This document shows, in pieces, positions 17,347-61,884 of a stretch of DNA of 64,000 bases (within the stretch, counting starts at the first letter, position 1; the number at the start of each line of letters is the position of its first letter). Below the pieces are notes generated by a model. That model saw only the letters and a program-made list of their open reading frames with translations, did not search any database and was not told the origin of the DNA. A program made the position numbers and the translations under genes. Origin of the DNA: Branchiostoma floridae (lineage: Eukaryota; Chordata; Leptocardii; Amphioxiformes; Branchiostomatidae); the NCBI RefSeq assembly GCF_000003815.2, contig NC_049992.1:14297847-14361846 (forward strand), given 5' to 3'.

Positions 17347-18097
17347 NNNNNNNNNNNNNNNNNNNNNNNNNNNNNNNNNNNNNNNNNNNNNNNNNNNNNN
17401 NNNNNNNNNNNNNNNNNNNNNNNNNNNNNNNNNNNNNNNNNNNNNNNNNNNNNNNNNNNNNNNNNNNNNNNNNNNNNNNNNNNNNNNNNNNNNNNNNNNN
17501 NNNNNNNNNNNNNNNNNNNNNNNNNNNNNNNNNNNNNNNNNNNNNNNNNNNNNNNNNNNNNNNNNNNNNNNNNNNNNNNNNNNNNNNNNNNNNNNNNNNN
17601 NNNNNNNNNNNNNNNNNNNNNNNNNNNNNNNNNNNNNNNNNNNNNNNNNNNNNNNNNNNNNNNNNNNNNNNNNNNNNNNNNNNNNNNNNNNNNNNNNNNN
17701 NNNNNNNNNNNNNNNNNNNNNNNNNNNNNNNNNNNNNNNNNNNNNNNNNNNNNNNNNNNNNNNNNNNNNNNNNNNNNNNNNNNNNNNNNNNNNNNNNNNN
17801 NNNNNNNNNNNNNNNNNNNNNNNNNNNNNNNNNNNNNNNNNNNNNNNNNNNNNNNNNNNNNNNNNNNNNNNNNNNNNNNNNNNNNNNNNNNNNNNNNNNN
17901 NNNNNNNNNNNNNNNNNNNNNNNNNNNNNNNNNNNNNNNNNNNNNNNNNNNNNNNNNNNNNNNNNNNNNNNNNNNNNNNNNNNNNNNNNNNNNNNNNNNN
18001 NNNNNNNNNNNNNNNNNNNNNNNNNNNNNNNNNNNNNNNNNNNNNNNNNNNNNNNNNNNNNNNNNNNNNNNNNNNNNNNNNNNNNNNNNNNNNNNNN
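17347..18097. other. Assembly gap (751 N)
   Basis: A run of unknown bases. Open frames that run through it on both strands are artefacts of reading N as coding. Confidence 1.
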
Positions 18098-47786: not shown

Positions 47787-50700
47787 CTGCGCAAGATCAC
47801 AAGATAAACAGTTTTAAAGGTCACTGATCCAAGCAGAGGTGTTTACAGTTAGGCCGGGAGACATAAAGAAAACGGTTAAAAATGGAAAGCCCGAAGAAAA
47901 ACCCGGCAAATCAGTCGGAGCCTAACCTCTGCTTGGAAATTACACTGATTCCACTATATTTGTTTAGGTAATATGTATCAATCTTCCATAGACAAACTGT
48001 AAGCAAAATCATCTGCCCTTTTAGACTTTGAGCTTTTATTGTATGGGGGAGTGGGAGGGGCACTGGTTGGCTAGTTTCAAAGTTGGCTAAGGTGAACTAT
48101 AATGCCGGGAAAGGGAGTTTGCCGTGGAAGGGAGTTTTCTTAGAAAGATACATTTGTAGTTTGCCGTGGAAGGAGTTTTGCCCCGCCTCGAAGTCTACGA
48201 AGGAGGTTACTGCGCCATACTTATTCTCTAGCTTTGATCAAAGCCACACGTTCTTCATTTTTACTTCTAAAACATCGTACCTGGCCGGACGAATCGGATT
48301 AAGTCGGGCAGACAATCAGGTTCCATTGCCCCAAGGATAAACCCTCCACAACACGAGACGGCATCGTACGAGTCTGGAAAAAGTAATAGACAGGTTAAGA
48401 CCAAACATATTTTCTAGATGTTTGAGCCCCATTACTACATCAACGCAGTGATTAATATTTCAATGCATTTTTATTCTAACAAAGCCATTAAGAAACGTCT
48501 GTATATTATCATCTATCATTGAGAGAATCTTTAGGAAAAGCAGACTCAGGCCTCCGGTTCTTTAGATATATCGTAATAACAAAGTTCTCTTTTCAATGCA
48601 AAGTGTTCATCAATTGTGAAGTCGTGGCAAAGATGACGCATATGAATGAATGCAAAAAATCAAGGGCGGCGAAGTTAGAACGTTGTACAACATGACCCTA
48701 ACGTACTCTTCTAATCGGTCAATGCAGAAGTAAAAGAGAAAATATGAAAATAAAGACACGAGTAGGTACTTTTTTTTTGCATCAAGGCGTATCATTAAAC
48801 GATTGCATTTACCAACCATTGTCTATGTTTGAAGTGCGATTCGCGCCGACAAAATCGCAGATGTACTTGTTATATCGGTTCTTGGACATGGCGTAGTCCA
48901 GAGAACGTTGGCTAGGATCCAGTCCGTCTATCGAAGTAAACCCAAGTTTTCTCAACTGTGGAAATAATATAAAAACATAAGCAATGTTACCTTTGTGCAG
49001 TGGTTACATGGAGAACCAAAACTAAGCCCCCACCCCGACACACCTACTGTGCAATACAAGTAAGTAGCAGTTCGTTTTAGTTCAGAAAGCTGGCGTTACA
49101 TCTTTGGGACGAAGAGAGCGTACCGAGCTTGACTTCCAAGACCTGACTCCAAGATGTCCCTAGGACTAGGTAGAAGATGGCATCTGAGGCCACACAACGA
49201 TGGAGAAAATATGCGTATACATAAGCAATTTTTCCAAACACACTATGCGTCATGCCAATAGCCAAATTTTACAAGAGAACGGCTTCCAAATTATAAACCT
49301 AGATTCAAATCAACAAATTCCAGAATTTGACGTCATTGACATGCGCTTCCAAAAATTTCTGTTAGGCATTCATGCCAAAGCCTCAAACGATGGTGTCAGG
49401 GGAGAATTGGGAACTTTCCCAGCTATGATTGATGCAGAAATGCAATTTGTTAAATATTGGCATCGTTTAGTTAACTTGCCCGAAGATGCCCTTTCTTCGT
49501 GAGACTTACAATACTGTTTCATTCGGAGAACCATTGATTGGATTGTCCACNNNNNNNNNNNNNNNNNNNNNNNNNNNNNNNNNNNNNNNNNNNNNNNNNN
49601 NNNNNNNNNNNNNNNNNNNNNNNNNNNNNNNNNNNNNNNNNNNNNNNNNNNNNNNNNNNNNNNNNNNNNNNNNNNNNNNNNNNNNNNNNNNNNTTCTAAA
49701 CTCTCCTCTCTTTCTACATTGAACAAGCATTACAAGCAAGAAAATTACATTTCAACCATAAAGAGCCTTGACATTCGTAGGGCAATCACACAACTCAGAA
49801 TTAGCTGTCACAAATTAAATATAGAAACCGGGAGATTAAAAAAATCCCTATCGACCAGAGGGTTTGTCCATTCTGTCCAGAGTTAATTGAAGACGAATAT
49901 CACTTTATGATTGTATGTCCCAAATATTCTGAAATACGCAATTCTCTATACAGAAGGTTGTCATTTTATACACATTTCAATTTATCTCAATGGACCTGAA
50001 GTGCAAATTCAAATACATCATGACATGTGACAATCCCTGCATGGCAGATATAGGAAAATATATCAAAGAAGGTTTGGATATTAGAAACTCCTTAACTGAT
50101 TGTAAAAGCTTCCAATGATTGTAAGAAGCTTATCCCATACTACAACTCCTGTATTAGTTAGTTAAGCTATAGAACTGTAGTTATGTAGATGCCATACTTT
50201 GTACCTCGTACAATTGTTGTGCAATAAAGTTATCTTGTCTTCTGAACTGTGGGGGTTCTTATCCCATGAACTACTTACCTCCTCCGCACAGAGTCCAGTC
50301 CCTGCAGCCACGTCCAAAATACATGAAGATTTTCTGTCCCCCAACCATTTTGCTAAAGCCTCTGCGCATATTCTTGGTCCCTGGTAGTCCCTTTTTGCGG
50401 TTTCCTGACAAAAGGGGAATATCTGTTTAAACCATCGCTGCTGGATGCTGCTGGAGGTTGGGTGAACCGTACAGAAAATTCAGAGAAATAGGTCTAGGTA
50501 CGAACCTGAAACTAGACCTTATTGCCGGTGGAACCTAGTAAATGTACGGTACTCAAAACAATTGTAAATTTCGCCAGAAATGATCTGTTTGGTGAAGTAT
50601 CCAACTCCCACTGACGTTTAAAAAGTCTGTATTCAAATCAAATCAAATCAACAATGCTAAGTTTGACAGTAGAAACTTGGTAAAAATTACTATAAACACT

Positions 50701-55038: not shown

Positions 55039-55074
55039 ATGTCGTTTCTGGTTAGAAAATGCGCGCTTTTCTAA
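55039..55074 (+). promoter_or_regulatory. Possible upstream ORF overlapping the first receptor AUG
   Basis: An ATG at 55039 opens a frame of 11 codons (MSFLVRKCALF) that ends in TAA at 55074. It overlaps the first in-frame receptor ATG (55059) but ends 14 bases before the second (55089). If both lie in the mRNA, initiation could favour the second Met, which directly starts the signal peptide. Whether the transcript includes 55039 is not shown. Confidence 0.3.
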
Positions 55075-57512
55075 ATCTGACTACGACAATGTACCTTGCG
55101 GCAGTTGTCCTACCGCTCGTCCTAGCCTTCCCGGCGGTTAAAGGCCCTAGGTATAGGGAGGAAGGAGGCCTGTTCAGTGCTAAAGGTATTGTAGATGTAC
55201 AGGATCGCACCATATGGATACGGCAACCGACGTCGGAATACACGCGATTAAACGATGGGGAACAGAGAAGCTGCAAGACGGTGAAGAGAAGCATACATGA
55301 GGTGGATGACGAGATATCCAACCTTTCGTACTGTCTCCCGCATGGCACTTGTGAAGGCCACTGCGGCGAACCCGACCCAAGCAACCTGTACTACCAGTCG
55401 TATTTCAACTGCCGTTGTGACATGGACTGTGAGATTTTCCAGGACTGCTGTCCCGACTACTCCACGGTCTGTGCCCATCACCACGCCGAGGAAGGGTCGG
55501 GCAACTCGGACCCTTCAGCCGCGGACAGACAAGACGAGGCAGGAGGTGCTGAAGGGAGTCCGCCTTTAGAAAATTTCGACTGTGTCAAGATTTCTGGCTA
55601 TTACCAAGACACGTACTGGGTGGTTACGCAATGCCACCCGAGCTGGACGGACGGGGACATACGGAGGCAGTGCGAAGACACCGACAACATGGACTTTCTT
55701 TCCGTGTTTCCCGTCACGGGGGAAGACGGCTTTACGTATAAAAACGCCTTCTGTGCCCAGTGTAACCACATGAAGAACTTCACCTTCTGGAACGTGTATG
55801 CGGGCTGCAGGGAGAGACCACCCGACAGCCGCGACCCTGCGATCCTGCCGTCCTACCTGAACCACTCCTGTCTGGTACGCATACTTCCTGAACGTGCGGA
55901 GAGACCGCTCCGCTTCTGCGAGCCGGACCTGGTCACCTCCTGCCCGCCTGACAGTAACTCAACCATCGCAGAGATCTGCAAATCATACGAGTCTATCGTA
56001 GTAGGTGGGGACTCCAAAGGTCCACTGACTGCATATAAAAACAGACACTGTGCCATTTGTAACGCGGTCCACAATGATGATCTATTCTGTCCGATATGGC
56101 GTCGATATGGCAACGGCTTTTACTGGACTTTAGGCATTGACCAAACTTCCTCAAACCTACAAAATAACCGACGGGTGAGCCTCGGTGAGTCCGGAACGTC
56201 CATGGACATGGACTTTAGCGGCCCCTTAGGGTGGCTACCCGCGGCTTTTTCCGTGCTCATGGACTTCGACCCAGTGCGGGGAGAGAGCTCTTTCACATAC
56301 ACCGATCTCACCAACCCGGCGGCTGACGAAGACGTAGAGATGGTGACGTGCCAGGCTGGCCAGATCTACGACCCCTTCCTGGCCATCTGCAGGTCCGTGT
56401 TTTGCGGCGAGGGCTTCTCGTACGACTTCTGGAACAAGATGTGCGTCTCTAACCAGAACAGTAGTCATGTCTTGCAAACTATACACATAACACTGACCAT
56501 CCAGATTCAGACGTACTCGTCCCTTGTGAACGAAGAACTCGAGCATCAAGTCATCGGAGCCGTAACCGGTCTCTTCAACATCAGTCAAGCAGGACTACAG
56601 TCCATCAATGTGAACATCGACAGTCCTTGGCAGCAGGTTAACACCAGTGCATCTTCGGGCGAAAGAATTCCGCCAGACAGCAATGTCCAAAACGGTCCTG
56701 TAGGAGAATCCTTCTTCAGTATGACGTTTTCCTTAGAAATACCAATAACTGATAATTTTATGAATGGCAACTATAGCTATTTCTTAGACAACCTGTATGC
56801 AAATCTTGAGGACTTTGACTTCTACATTGCCGGCGTTCCAGTCAACGCCATCGACTCCAGGGAAGACGTCGATGTTGACTCATTCCAATGCCGAAACGGA
56901 ACCATACCAAGGGTATACGACTTCATGGACTTCGTTTTCATGACCGACCAAGAAAACAACACCATTCTACATGTCAACTCCACGTGCAAGTCATTTTCCG
57001 AAGACGAGTTCACAGTGTATTCCGTCAGCATGCATGCCTCCAAGTTCGGAGAACTGACGACCCAAATCGCGCAAGTTCTCGTGTGCGTGGACGAGACTTC
57101 CTGCCCTATAGTTCCCCTGAACCAGTCTGAGTACCAGCTTCTCCCGAACAATTCTCTCCTGTATCTTTCCTGTGCCTACGGAGACCATCTTGTGCCTCCA
57201 AGTGACTATTGCATCATCAATGGACACCCGCATGTCGTGTTCTGTGAAAACAGTACTGCGGATTCCGGGGTAGACTACCAACCTGTAGAGGCCCCGACCG
57301 CCATCACAGCAGACAGGGTCGTGACGTTTGTAGCCATGGTGGTGTCTCTCACAACCCTGGCCGCGACTATCGTGACGTACCTCCTCTTCTCGTCCCTCCG
57401 AACTCTCCCAGGACTGACCATTTTGAACCTCTCCACCTCCTTGTTCCTCTCCCAGGTCGTATTCCTGTCGTCTGTAAACAGAGAAAACATCTCCAGCGAC
57501 CTGCTTTGCAAG
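55059..57512 (+). CDS. Receptor exon 1: ectodomain, TM1 and TM2
   Basis: One large exon encodes residues 1-818. The somatomedin-B domain has the pattern C-x3-C-x15-C-x-C-x3-C-x5-CC-x6-C, from Cys98 to Cys138, including FQDCCPDY. Two later segments share a YKN-x2-CA-x-CN pattern (YKNAFCAQCN and YKNRHCAICN), suggesting a repeated cysteine-rich module. Another Cys-rich patch contains FCGEGFSYDFWNKMC. TM1 is at about 753-777 and TM2 at about 786-806. Cys817 is the TM3-top cysteine. The exon ends CTTTGCAAG then GTAAGG, in phase 0. Confidence 0.9.
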
Positions 57513-60500
57513 GTAAGGTACAGACTCCTATCCGTAGGGGCCACATACATACTTAAGTTTTCTTGCCTTTACCCCAAACCGTACTCTATTCAAACATGAA
57601 CATATTTCTTTAAACTGGTAAACTCATGTGTCTGATATTTGCTGTTCCGGACCTATATCAGAAACCTATAATCAATTCCCCCTTTTCTATCGTTCATTAC
57701 GGCATGTACCACTTCCTCATGTTAAACGCTTTACATAAGTAAGTAGTAAGTAATTACCTCATAAATGCCATCAATATGTACAAATGGGTTGTAAAATATT
57801 TTGGGATGAAATCGTTACGCGTCCATTTTTCCTATCTTCTTCTGAAACACTGAATGTATACAATGTCTCACTTCTGTAGGTGACAGGCATGGGCATCCAC
57901 TACCTGTATCTGACGTCTTTCTTCTGGATGAACGTCACTGCCTTCATGGTGTACAAGACCTTTGTGGTGGAGAAAACTATCATCGTTCGCTGCAGGTGAC
58001 TAAGTCTGATACATCATTATCTTAGTCATGATAGCTAACGTTTGTTAATACATTTTTCTTATTTGAGACATATTTCAAATGTATGTCATGTGCATATAGT
58101 GAAAGTTTGTTGTAACTTCTTGCCCCTGTGCTAATAATATGTGCAGGTAACATGAAGGACCACAAACAGTGTATAACTAGAGTTCGGCGACCTCATACCT
58201 CCATGAAAATTTAGAGCTTTCGTAAATTTCATGCAATTGACTAACACATTAACATAATTTATGCATGGTATTGTTCATCATTGACTAACGTACACATGTC
58301 ACAATTATAAAATTCCCATTATTAATCATAAAGCGTTTTTGCAATTTTTACATAAATTATGCAAATAAGTTCCTCATTACCATATTTGGTATCTGTTTAT
58401 ATTCCACCTATCATAGTTAACATGTATTACATTTATTGAAGTCCAGTTATTGAAAACAATGAATTATACAATTTCCTCATTAATTATGCAAATTAAGTCC
58501 CCATTTGCATAAAATGTATATCATTATGAACATCTTTGCCTAAGGTACCCGCATGCCTAATATGATGCCAATCCATCAATCCTTTCTGCAGTTATCGTCT
58601 TTAGAATGTCTTGACAAAAACGGCCCTGCAGTTCCGAAATTAAATGTTAGGGGGCTGAAACCTGCCCCACTTTGTCATGACACTGCAAGCTATCTACCAG
58701 CCAAATGTCAAGACCATATCACATCCAGGACAAGAGATACATTGAAAAAACTGCCATGATATAATATCCTCATTAATTATGCAAATGTACTCCTATTTTG
58801 CATAATTAGTATTTAATCTTGTACAACATTGTCTAAGGTACCTACATACCAAAAATCATGAAAATCCGTTGTTCCCTTCTTGAGTTATCCTCGTCAGAAG
58901 TTTTTGACAAAAATGCCCCTGCTATCCCCAAACTAGACGCTAAGGGGCCCAAACTTACGTAAAATTTTCCTGAGCACAAGAGCTATCTAATGCTTAAAAA
59001 TGTTGACCATAGCATGTTCAGAACACCGAGATGGCAAAACCGGAAGTTGCGCTGCAGTACCAAGGCCACACACCAGGGGGCCCAAAATTGACCTTGACCT
59101 TCGTCTTCCCAACCCCTACCTACATACCAAATATCATCGTAGTCCATCAAGAGGTTCTCAAGTTATGATGACCACAAATATGCGGACACACAGACACACA
59201 CACAAACACACACACACACACACAGACACACTCAAAACTATACCTCCATTTTTTCATGGAGGTAACAATAATGCAAATGTCTTTTCTAGTATGAAAGCTA
59301 ACTCTAGATTATGGGTCTATTGGGTGCAACTTCTTTTCCTAATACAGTGGAAGGCGAATGACCCCACGTTTTCTATCATGTGTGGGTTTTGTGATGTTAG
59401 ACGCCTTAGACGGAGAACTGTTTTTATCACAACATATTTGTATCTTGGCTTTTGTTTGATTTTCATCATCAGTTCTGAAACAAATTGTTTAATCTTATGC
59501 GCTTTCTTCTGTCTTGTTGGTCTTAGGTCAGACCACATGAGGAAGGCGCTTCGCTACATGGTGTACGCGTGGGGATGTCCTCTCATCATCGTCTCTATCT
59601 GCGCAGTGCTGGAGTTTGTGGACGTTGGCCCTCTAAAAGGTAAGCATCTCGCGAATCCATCTTCTCTCCTTTACCAATGTTGCTCCTTCCATTTGCTAGT
59701 TATCGGTTTATCTCTAGTAATATATTGGAAATAAAGGTATTGACTTCTGCATCAAACATTGTTTCATGTGTCGTCGCGTGTAGCATAACTGGACCCGAGT
59801 GCTTGACTCGAGTTTGATACTCGCCTTATACCCGACGTTGTGCCCTTGGAAAGGGCACTCTCTAAGCAGAGTGTAGGCTAATGCTGTTTTTTAACGTTTT
59901 TTAGTCGTTTTTATCGGGCTTTCTATTTTGTGTTTTACCTTGCTGTGTTAGATAAAATAGCAGCAAAATTGAAAGCCCGATAAAAACGACTAAAAAACGT
60001 TAAAAAAAACAACCGGAGTCTAACCTCTGCTTGGAGAGTAACTAACCTTTCTCACTTCACCCAGGTGTAAGAATGGGTAACTAGCGTCTGACGGGGAGGT
60101 AAAAATAGTACATGTACCTTTACCTTCTGTCTGTACTGTACTGTACTGTGTATGTGGCGCTCTTACAATACGTTACTAACTTGAGTGCAGTGCCACATTG
60201 CCCTGGTCTTTCCCAAAGCAAATAAAACAAACATACAAACATTCTTTCTCCTGTAGATGTCGGGTTTGGGTATGGAGGCACGGTGACGTGCTGGATATCA
60301 CAGCTGTATCCCCTCATCTTCGCCTTCTTCGTCCCGCTGGCCATCATCATCGTGGCCAACGCCATTTTGTTCATCATCACCGTCATCTCCATCAACAGGA
60401 CCCGCTCCGTGCAGGTACGTTGTCATGACGACGGTATGTCTTGGTCATGATGTAAACATCACAAGATTTACTTAAAGTCTATTTGTTACTAGCCCTGTAC

Positions 60501-61884
60501 TATTTCAACACACGCTTTTCCTGCACATATGTTGTTGTTGAAAAGTGTTGTCTGTTGTCCTTATGTTCGCTTGCTTTTGCATTTGACTTCAGAAATTTCA
60601 ATAACTTACTAAAACATTAAAACACGTCACGTCACCGAGAACACGCAATTGATACAATGCGATCGGCGAGACACTATTGTAACAGGAGATGCCTAAAGAT
60701 GGTACCCGCCCTAAGATGGCACAGATTTTCACAGTGTTTGCCGCTTGTAACGCGCTGCGCGAAAGGTTCATGAACCATATGTATGCATTTTTATTCAAGT
60801 ATGTTCTTCAGATGAATGTGTCAAAAAGTCATTCATCAAAACTAGACCACTCTCTGCCAACTAGCGATGGATCGCCATGAGTTCGAGTGCGTGAAAAAGC
60901 GTGCCATGATAGGGCACCTTCCGTTAACAAAAATGTATAGTGACAGAAATAACAGATGTAATGGAATTAAACATTGTTCTTTTCCCCATTTTCCAGGGTA
61001 AGAACGCCCGTCAGAACGTCAAAGTGTACGTACGCCTGTCCACGGTGATGGGCTTCACATGGATCTTCGGCTTCTTGGCTGTCGTCGTCAACGCTCGGAT
61101 CATCACAGAAATCCTGTGGTTCCTCTTCATCATCTTCAACTGCCTTCAGGTAACATTTCCGAACACCATGCATCAACTTTTCTATTTGTTTGTTTGCTTG
61201 CCATGTGTGTGCGCGAGTGTAGTCTGCAAACAGGATCTAAGAGAGGGAGAAACGACGTTTTTTTCCTTGTTGGAAAAAACGGATTCTGGACCGATTGGAT
61301 ATATATAATGAACAGATTACACATGTATACCGGCAGGCGTACACGTGTTTGGGGGATTGCCGGTCCAAGAAAATAAAATAAGAGCGAAGTAGAGGAGAGT
61401 TGATAGTCATTTTAACCAAGTTTCTATACTTTCGACACATTTTTACCAAGCTTGAGGTCCGGACCTCTCTTGACCTTGACCGCACCTGTACCTGAATTTT
61501 ATGTACCTGTCTCCACCCCTATTCTATTATATCATTATATTAAGGAGATGTGTTGCTTTGCAGGGTGTCTTTCTCTTCATCGCTTTCGTCTGCAACACGA
61601 GAGTGCTGAACCTGTACAAGAAGAGGCTGGGCCTGAAGCGTAAGGGTGGCCAGTTGGTGAGAGGCATGAGCACCCCGCCATGCAGTCCCATCAAGAAGTC
61701 CCCCACTGAAACCACTTTGGTTCCGTCCACTCCCCCTGTTTCCATCAACACAATCTCCGAGAAATGCATGAAAAAATCGCCGAGTCAGACTTTTCTGATT
61801 CCCCCGTGTTCCTTCGAGTTTGAACCAACACCTCTGTACCCCCCTCCCCAGGAGAACGAAGAAGACATTGTCACCAGGCTTTAA
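55059..61884 (+). CDS. Somatomedin-B seven-transmembrane receptor (class B2/methuselah-like GPCR), six exons
   Basis: Coding exons 55059-57512, 57880-57995, 59527-59639, 60257-60414, 60997-61149 and 61564-61884 splice in phase to 1104 residues. The long N-terminal part is extracellular: a signal peptide (residues 11-29, MYLAAVVLPLVLAFPAVKG), a somatomedin-B domain (Cys 98-138), then cysteine-rich, N-glycosylation-site-rich sequence. Seven membrane helices follow from about residue 753. Family marks include LRTLPGLTILNLS (TM2), HYLYLTSFFWMNVTAF (TM3), the Cys-Trp pair TVTCW in loop 2, GFTWIFGFLAVV (TM6) and FNCLQGVFLFIAFVC (TM7). Such receptors signal from the plasma membrane through G proteins; the ligand is unknown. 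No GPS/GAIN cleavage motif is visible before TM1, so it resembles methuselah-type more than typical adhesion receptors. A stop codon (55053-55055) directly precedes the first Met, which limits the start to 55059 or 55089. Confidence 0.88.
57513..57879 (+). other. Receptor intron 1
   Basis: An intron of 367 bp bounded by GTAAGG and TGTAG. I see no repeat or gene in it. Confidence 0.8.
57880..57995 (+). CDS. Receptor exon 2: TM3
   Basis: Encodes VTGMGIHYLYLTSFFWMNVT and on to EKTIIVRC, i.e. TM3 and the start of intracellular loop 2. The acceptor is CTTCTGTAG and the donor GCAG then GTGACT. It ends after two bases of an Arg codon. Confidence 0.9.
58186..59265. repeat. Composite repeat with inverted tips in receptor intron 2
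   Basis: The element starts near CGGCGACCTCATACCTCCAT then GAAAA and ends near ACCTCCATTTTTTCATGGAG then GTAAC. ACCTCCATGAAAA at the left is thus inverted at the right end. Inside are two diverged direct repeats (about 58470-58760 and 58765-59000). Each includes CTCATTAATTATGCAAAT, a GGTACC-type word, a TTGACAAAAA-GCCCCTGC-type block and a GGGGCTGAAACCTGC-like block; part of a third repeat follows near 59110. A CA-rich microsatellite (59183-59232) lies just inside the right end. It is probably a non-autonomous DNA element, class unknown. Confidence 0.65.
59527..59639 (+). CDS. Receptor exon 3: TM4
   Basis: Encodes SDHMRKALRYMVYAWGCPLI and on to EFVDVGPLK, i.e. TM4. The acceptor is GGTCTTAG, and a GTAAGC donor follows one base of the next codon. 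The upstream sequence stays open for about 170 codons from 59000, but that is intronic. Confidence 0.9.
59775..60115 (+). mobile_element. tRNA-derived SINE, copy 3, split by a hairpin MITE
   Basis: The head GTGTAGCATAACTGGACC, a box-B-like CGAGTTTGATACTCG and the tail ACGTTGTGCCCTTGGAAAGG match the SINE copies at 27722 and 46581. The tail is interrupted at about 59858 and resumes at about 60038 with ACCTTTCTCACTTCACCCAG. The inserted 180 bp is the hairpin MITE listed next. The whole lies in receptor intron 3. Confidence 0.7.
59859..60038. mobile_element. Hairpin MITE family 3, copy 2, inserted in a SINE
   Basis: This is an almost perfect foldback. The arm at 59885-59923 (TTTTTTAACGTTTTTTAGTC then GTTTTTATCGGGCTTTC) is repeated inverted at 59970-60009, with about 46 bp of loop. 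The outer ends ACTCTCTAAGCAGAG and, reverse complemented, ACTCTCCAAGCAGAG continue the inverted repeat. It is related to the element at 47829-47936. Confidence 0.85.
60257..60414 (+). CDS. Receptor exon 4: extracellular loop 2 and TM5
   Basis: Encodes VGFGYGGTVTCWISQLYPLI, then FAFFVPLAIIIVANAILF to RTRSVQ. The Cys of TCW should pair with Cys817. The acceptor is CTCCTGTAG and the donor CAG then GTACGT. Confidence 0.9.
60415..60996 (+). other. Receptor intron 4
   Basis: An intron of 582 bp with no recognised element. A 63-codon frame inside (60689-60880) has no known domain. Confidence 0.7.
60997..61149 (+). CDS. Receptor exon 5: TM6 and part of TM7
   Basis: Encodes GKNARQNVKVYVRLSTVMGF, TWIFGFLAVVVNARIITEIL and WFLFIIFNCLQ. 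The acceptor is TTTTCCAG and the donor CAG then GTAACA. Both ends are phase 0. Confidence 0.9.
61150..61563 (+). other. Receptor intron 5
   Basis: An intron of 414 bp with no recognised element. Confidence 0.7.
61564..61884 (+). CDS. Receptor exon 6: end of TM7 and cytoplasmic tail
   Basis: Encodes GVFLFIAFVCNTRVLNLYKK and then a tail of about 85 residues rich in Ser, Pro and Lys, with SPIKKSP and KKSPSQ as possible phosphorylation sites. It ends EDIVTRL and TAA. The C-terminal TRL resembles a class I PDZ-binding motif (S/T-x-hydrophobic), which is inference. Confidence 0.9.
   Translation, partial: GVFLFIAFVCNTRVLNLYKKRLGLKRKGGQLVRGMSTPPCSPIKKSPTETTLVPSTPPVSINTISEKCMKKSPSQTFLIPPCSFEFEPTPLYPPPQENEEDIVTRL

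Follow-up and report, generated by a model that had tools for sequence, protein, structure and literature searches.

A putative class B receptor gene of Branchiostoma floridae that carries a somatomedin-B domain but lacks a recognisable GPS or GAIN

Gene structure

The window, a stretch of 64 kb of Branchiostoma floridae DNA, contains a putative receptor gene on the forward strand at 55059–61884, and the features assigned to it are given in Table 1. Splice sites were placed by hand on the sequence and joined six exons into a single frame encoding 1,104 amino acids. All five introns begin with GT and end with AG, and their phases are 0, 2, 1, 0 and 0, so that the exons are in-phase, as the original prediction had described them, in the sense that the frame is kept, while the intron phases themselves differ. 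Exon 1 sits within an open frame of 847 codons (55056–57599), and placing the exon 3 acceptor at TTAG/GT gave an open frame through the gene. The joins are best supported by the 7tm_2 profile, which was matched nearly from end to end over all six exons. The coding sequence has a GC3 of 0.663 and the introns a GC content of 0.365–0.411, the range over the window in 4 kb blocks being 0.324–0.455. On this sequence evidence the structure of six exons was confirmed, and the gene looks intact.

Table 1. Positions of exons, domains and other segments of the receptor gene
Feature	Position	Strand	Description
Exon 1	55059–57512	+	aa 1–818, entire ectodomain and TM1–TM2; donor AAG/GTAAGG
Exon 2	57880–57995	+	spliced gene model
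Exon 3	59527–59639	+	spliced gene model
Exon 4	60257–60414	+	spliced gene model
Exon 5	60997–61149	+	spliced gene model
Exon 6	61564–61884	+	end of TM7, Ser/Thr-Pro-rich tail, stop
Start codon and hydrophobic leader	55059–55130	+	putative signal peptide, aa 1 to ~24; hydropathy peak aa 3–31, cleavage point inferred
Somatomedin_B domain, 8 Cys	55347–55478	+	aa 97–140; Pfam PF01033, E 1.9e-07
Cys module 1	55581–55808	+	aa 175–250, internal repeat; YKNAFCAQCN from aa 227 (55737–55766)
Cys module 2	55869–56090	+	aa 271–344, internal repeat; YKNRHCAICN from aa 326 (56034–56063)
Short 4-Cys cluster	56349–56444	+	aa 431–462, from Cys map
Possible ferredoxin-like/SEA-like module	56469–56849	+	aa 471–597, beta-alpha-beta-beta-alpha-beta; low-confidence single-sequence model
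Juxtamembrane Cys-bearing stretch without recognisable GPS	56901–57314	+	aa 615–752; no GPS/GAIN listed by Pfam
7tm_2 region	57315–61572	+	aa 753–1001, exons 1–6; Pfam PF00002, E 6.5e-29, profile 5–249 of 250

The extracellular region

The predicted protein opens with a hydrophobic leader, in agreement with the signal peptide originally proposed. The somatomedin-B (SMB) domain that follows scored 31.7 bits with its Pfam model against a gathering cutoff of 23.1, and carries the eight expected cysteines at positions 98, 102, 118, 120, 124, 130, 131 and 138. When this domain was compared with the sequences of solved structures the matches were weak: the best ENPP chain had an E of 0.019 and vitronectin one of 0.9, and a shorter query gave 0.09 for ENPP and 1.4 for vitronectin. 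The Cys-rich fold is shared with the domains of vitronectin and ENPP, proteins that are not known to have a 7TM core.

Both of the YKN-x2-CA-x-CN segments noted earlier were found, each inside one copy of an internal repeat. The alignment of the two copies scored 52, compared with a shuffle mean of 25.3 (sd 4.5), and this score was reached in 1 of 2000 plain shuffles and in 3 of 2,000 shuffles with the cysteines held fixed, in a test that was not blind since the module limits were set by hand after the motif had been noticed. From the sequence we take the repeat to be real, with copies that have diverged. Elsewhere in the window no further copies were seen, either by tblastn of the protein or when the flanks were searched again. 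In the segment aa 24–750 the protein has 14 N-x-S/T sequons, and RGD is absent from all 1,104 residues.

The 7TM core and cytoplasmic tail

The 7tm_2 model was matched with 101.4 bits (cutoff 20.6), which places the receptor in class B as the original prediction held. Of the Pfam families listed, Somatomedin_B and 7tm_2 alone passed their cutoffs, with DUF6264, Ocular_alb and RCR falling below theirs, and the occurrence of both in one spliced protein bears out the proposed fusion. A hydropathy scan left TM3 under threshold and merged TM6 and TM7 in one peak. When the region was searched against PDB sequences, the best 25 of 40 matches were adhesion receptors, ranging from ADGRE1 (4.9e-20) to ADGRG1 (3.1e-06). 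CRF receptors came next (at best 4.5e-05), and further down were somatostatin receptor 5, PAC1 and the GHRH receptor; no Methuselah chain was present among the 40. The top scores among the matches listed, which are pairwise scores and not a tree, were 74 bits for ADGRE1 and 72.9 for ADGRL3, with CRFR1 as the best secretin-type receptor at 24.5. By sequence comparison the predicted 7TM region is therefore closest to adhesion GPCRs, nearer than to secretin receptors. The best matched stretch in each of the adhesion entries starts at aa 746–760, near TM1, even in the long entries, which presumably include a GAIN, judging by their length.

The protein ends in VTRL (61870–61881) after a tail with six S/T-P sites. 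Class I PDZ ligands follow the rule S/T-x-hydrophobic, and the VTRL end fits such a ligand.

The membrane-proximal region and alternative readings

The Pfam search of the whole spliced protein (maximum E 10, with filters that drop most matches above about 0.1) listed no GPS, GAIN, HRM or Methuselah_N (PF06652) model. By these profiles the receptor falls outside the adhesion GPCRs in the strict sense (a GAIN with a profile-recognisable GPS), the Methuselah receptors of arthropod type and the secretin GPCRs. Just before the 7TM match, aa 601–752 contain neither C-x-C nor Trp, and seven cysteines at positions 611, 643, 676, 682, 705, 718 and 729. These results agree with the earlier observation that no GPS is visible, and support the reading of the sequence as that of a receptor with no recognisable GPS/GAIN. 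Among sponge adhesion receptors, 12 of 40 are given as having no detected GPS in a passage of PMC4302439, whose authors allow for incomplete gene models.

A classical adhesion GPCR, in which GAIN/GPS has diverged past profile recognition and which has kept self-cleavage or the exposure of a tethered agonist, would account for a 7TM nearest to adhesion receptors, and the seven cysteines might be part of a GPS region that has degenerated. We consider this unlikely, as Pfam lists neither model, the C-x-C and Trp are missing, and phmmer with the juxtamembrane piece returned a single row from the PDB sequences, an unrelated hydrolase at E 0.45. It is very unlikely that the protein is a secretin-like peptide-hormone receptor whose Cys-rich ectodomain stands in for the hormone-binding domain: the 7TM is of class B and has the weak similarity to CRF receptors given above, but HRM is not listed and CRFR1 scores some 50 bits below the best adhesion 7TM. 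A pseudogene, or exons of two genes wrongly joined, might be suspected from a gene model drawn on sequence in place of transcripts and from the repeat-rich intron 2, but is scarcely credible for 1,104 codons free of stops and frameshifts with GT-AG at every intron, the GC3 value above, a 7tm_2 profile nearly whole over six exons and one exon carrying both SMB and TM1–TM2.

There is a hint of a ferredoxin-like module within the ectodomain, from a single-sequence model of low confidence. When the predicted sub-model of aa 463–614 was compared with known structures, Foldseek gave no match at E 0.001 or better and VIA-align gave mixed alpha/beta matches; no chain titled as SEA or GAIN was among the 50 matches listed by each program, which excludes nothing. 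The predicted model of the whole exon 1 product (aa 24–818), including the juxtamembrane stretch, had a mean pLDDT of 33.8 and was unusable. It is conceivable, though quite improbable, that in SMB/NvX-type receptors a ferredoxin-like (SEA-like) module replaces the GAIN, lying after the Cys modules and ahead of the juxtamembrane stretch, and that this module responds to force or ligand and governs the 7TM with no GPS cleavage of the adhesion type. If so, this would be a second architecture of ectodomain-to-7TM coupling among class B receptors.

Relation to known receptors and proposed function

The fusion was originally thought to be lineage-restricted. A narrow restriction does not stand, because the same combination of SMB and 7TM has been published for amphioxus, a hemichordate, a cnidarian and planarians, while its absence from vertebrates may hold (passages of PMC4768249, PMC3261222 and PMC2246102). 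In the passages of PMC3261222, which state no GPS status for either cluster, the adhesion-like receptors NvX (Nematostella) and PARF1 (the planarian Schmidtea) are described with a single Somatomedin B and a class B 7TM, and those of PMC4768249 place Somatomedin_B in the ectodomain of class B Mth/Mthl homologs from N. vectensis (XP_001628572), B. floridae (XP_002608881) and S. kowalevskii (XP_006821924); the present receptor is likened to both by published description. The latter passages find the Mth ectodomain in arthropods only and report that tunicates and vertebrates have no Mth/Mthl homologs. They report none for Platyhelminthes either, a result that is hard to square with the description of PARF1 as NvX-like. 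Passages on the amphioxus expansion of adhesion GPCRs (PMC2246102) report Somatomedin B, with Kringle and others; the receptor described here is alike in having Somatomedin B within an adhesion-type GPCR but has no Kringle listed by Pfam.

The receptor seems to be an ordinary representative of a known, little-studied group, most likely of the NvX/PARF1/Methuselah-like kind, a placement by likeness. Several animal phyla are reported to have class B receptors that contain somatomedin B, and the passages cited, which do not come from a ligand-directed literature search, name no ligand or mechanism. What is new for this group is a clean gene model, together with a Cys module present as a repeat and a suggested membrane-proximal fold; the gene does not represent a new kind of receptor.

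We consider it likely that the gene is protein-coding and specifies a class B adhesion-like GPCR of this group, with SMB and without recognisable GAIN/GPS. The leader would direct the receptor to the cell surface, where the disulfide-rich, sequon-rich ectodomain (SMB, the two Cys modules and the possible ferredoxin-like module) would bind an extracellular protein or peptide partner. The 7TM core would relay binding to heterotrimeric G proteins, the receptor would be uncleaved, as originally proposed, and would signal without a GPS-cleaved tethered agonist, and the VTRL end may lead to PDZ scaffolding. A matrix or protease ligand, as hinted at in the original prediction, is a guess. The vitronectin hot spot for PAI-1/uPAR, which we take to be D22, L24, Y27 and Y28, corresponds in Cys register to D121, D123, I126 and F127 of the receptor. 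One of these four contact positions is kept, giving a weak reason to doubt that the domain would bind ligands in the manner of vitronectin.

The remainder of the window and the introns

A tandem paralogue within the window was rejected after tblastn of the protein, which returned its own exons and six weak pieces (E 0.73 to 7.6); the two of these near 36.4–36.7 kb fall in reading frames interrupted by stops. The flanks on either side of the gene, searched again for a paralogue, gave short chance-level matches only, with the lowest E of 0.15 in the small 3' flank. The window has 34 open frames of at least 110 codons, 23 of them outside the gene span and some of these being runs of N. Ten of the 23 were scanned with Pfam and none reached a cutoff, two of them giving sub-threshold rows, CiaD (13.1 against 27 bits) and CAP_C (14.7 against 23.8). 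The runs of N at 17347–18097 and 49551–49693 are assembly gaps or masked stretches.

Intron 3 holds a near-perfect inverted repeat at 59887–60007, with arms of 44 nt that are 98% complementary and 33 nt between them, which looks like a small foldback or MITE-type element. Intron 2 holds, at 58337–58973, a direct repeat of 218 nt whose copies have diverged to 71% identity, with a spacing of 293, and the same intron contains AT-rich repeats bearing ATGCAAAT.
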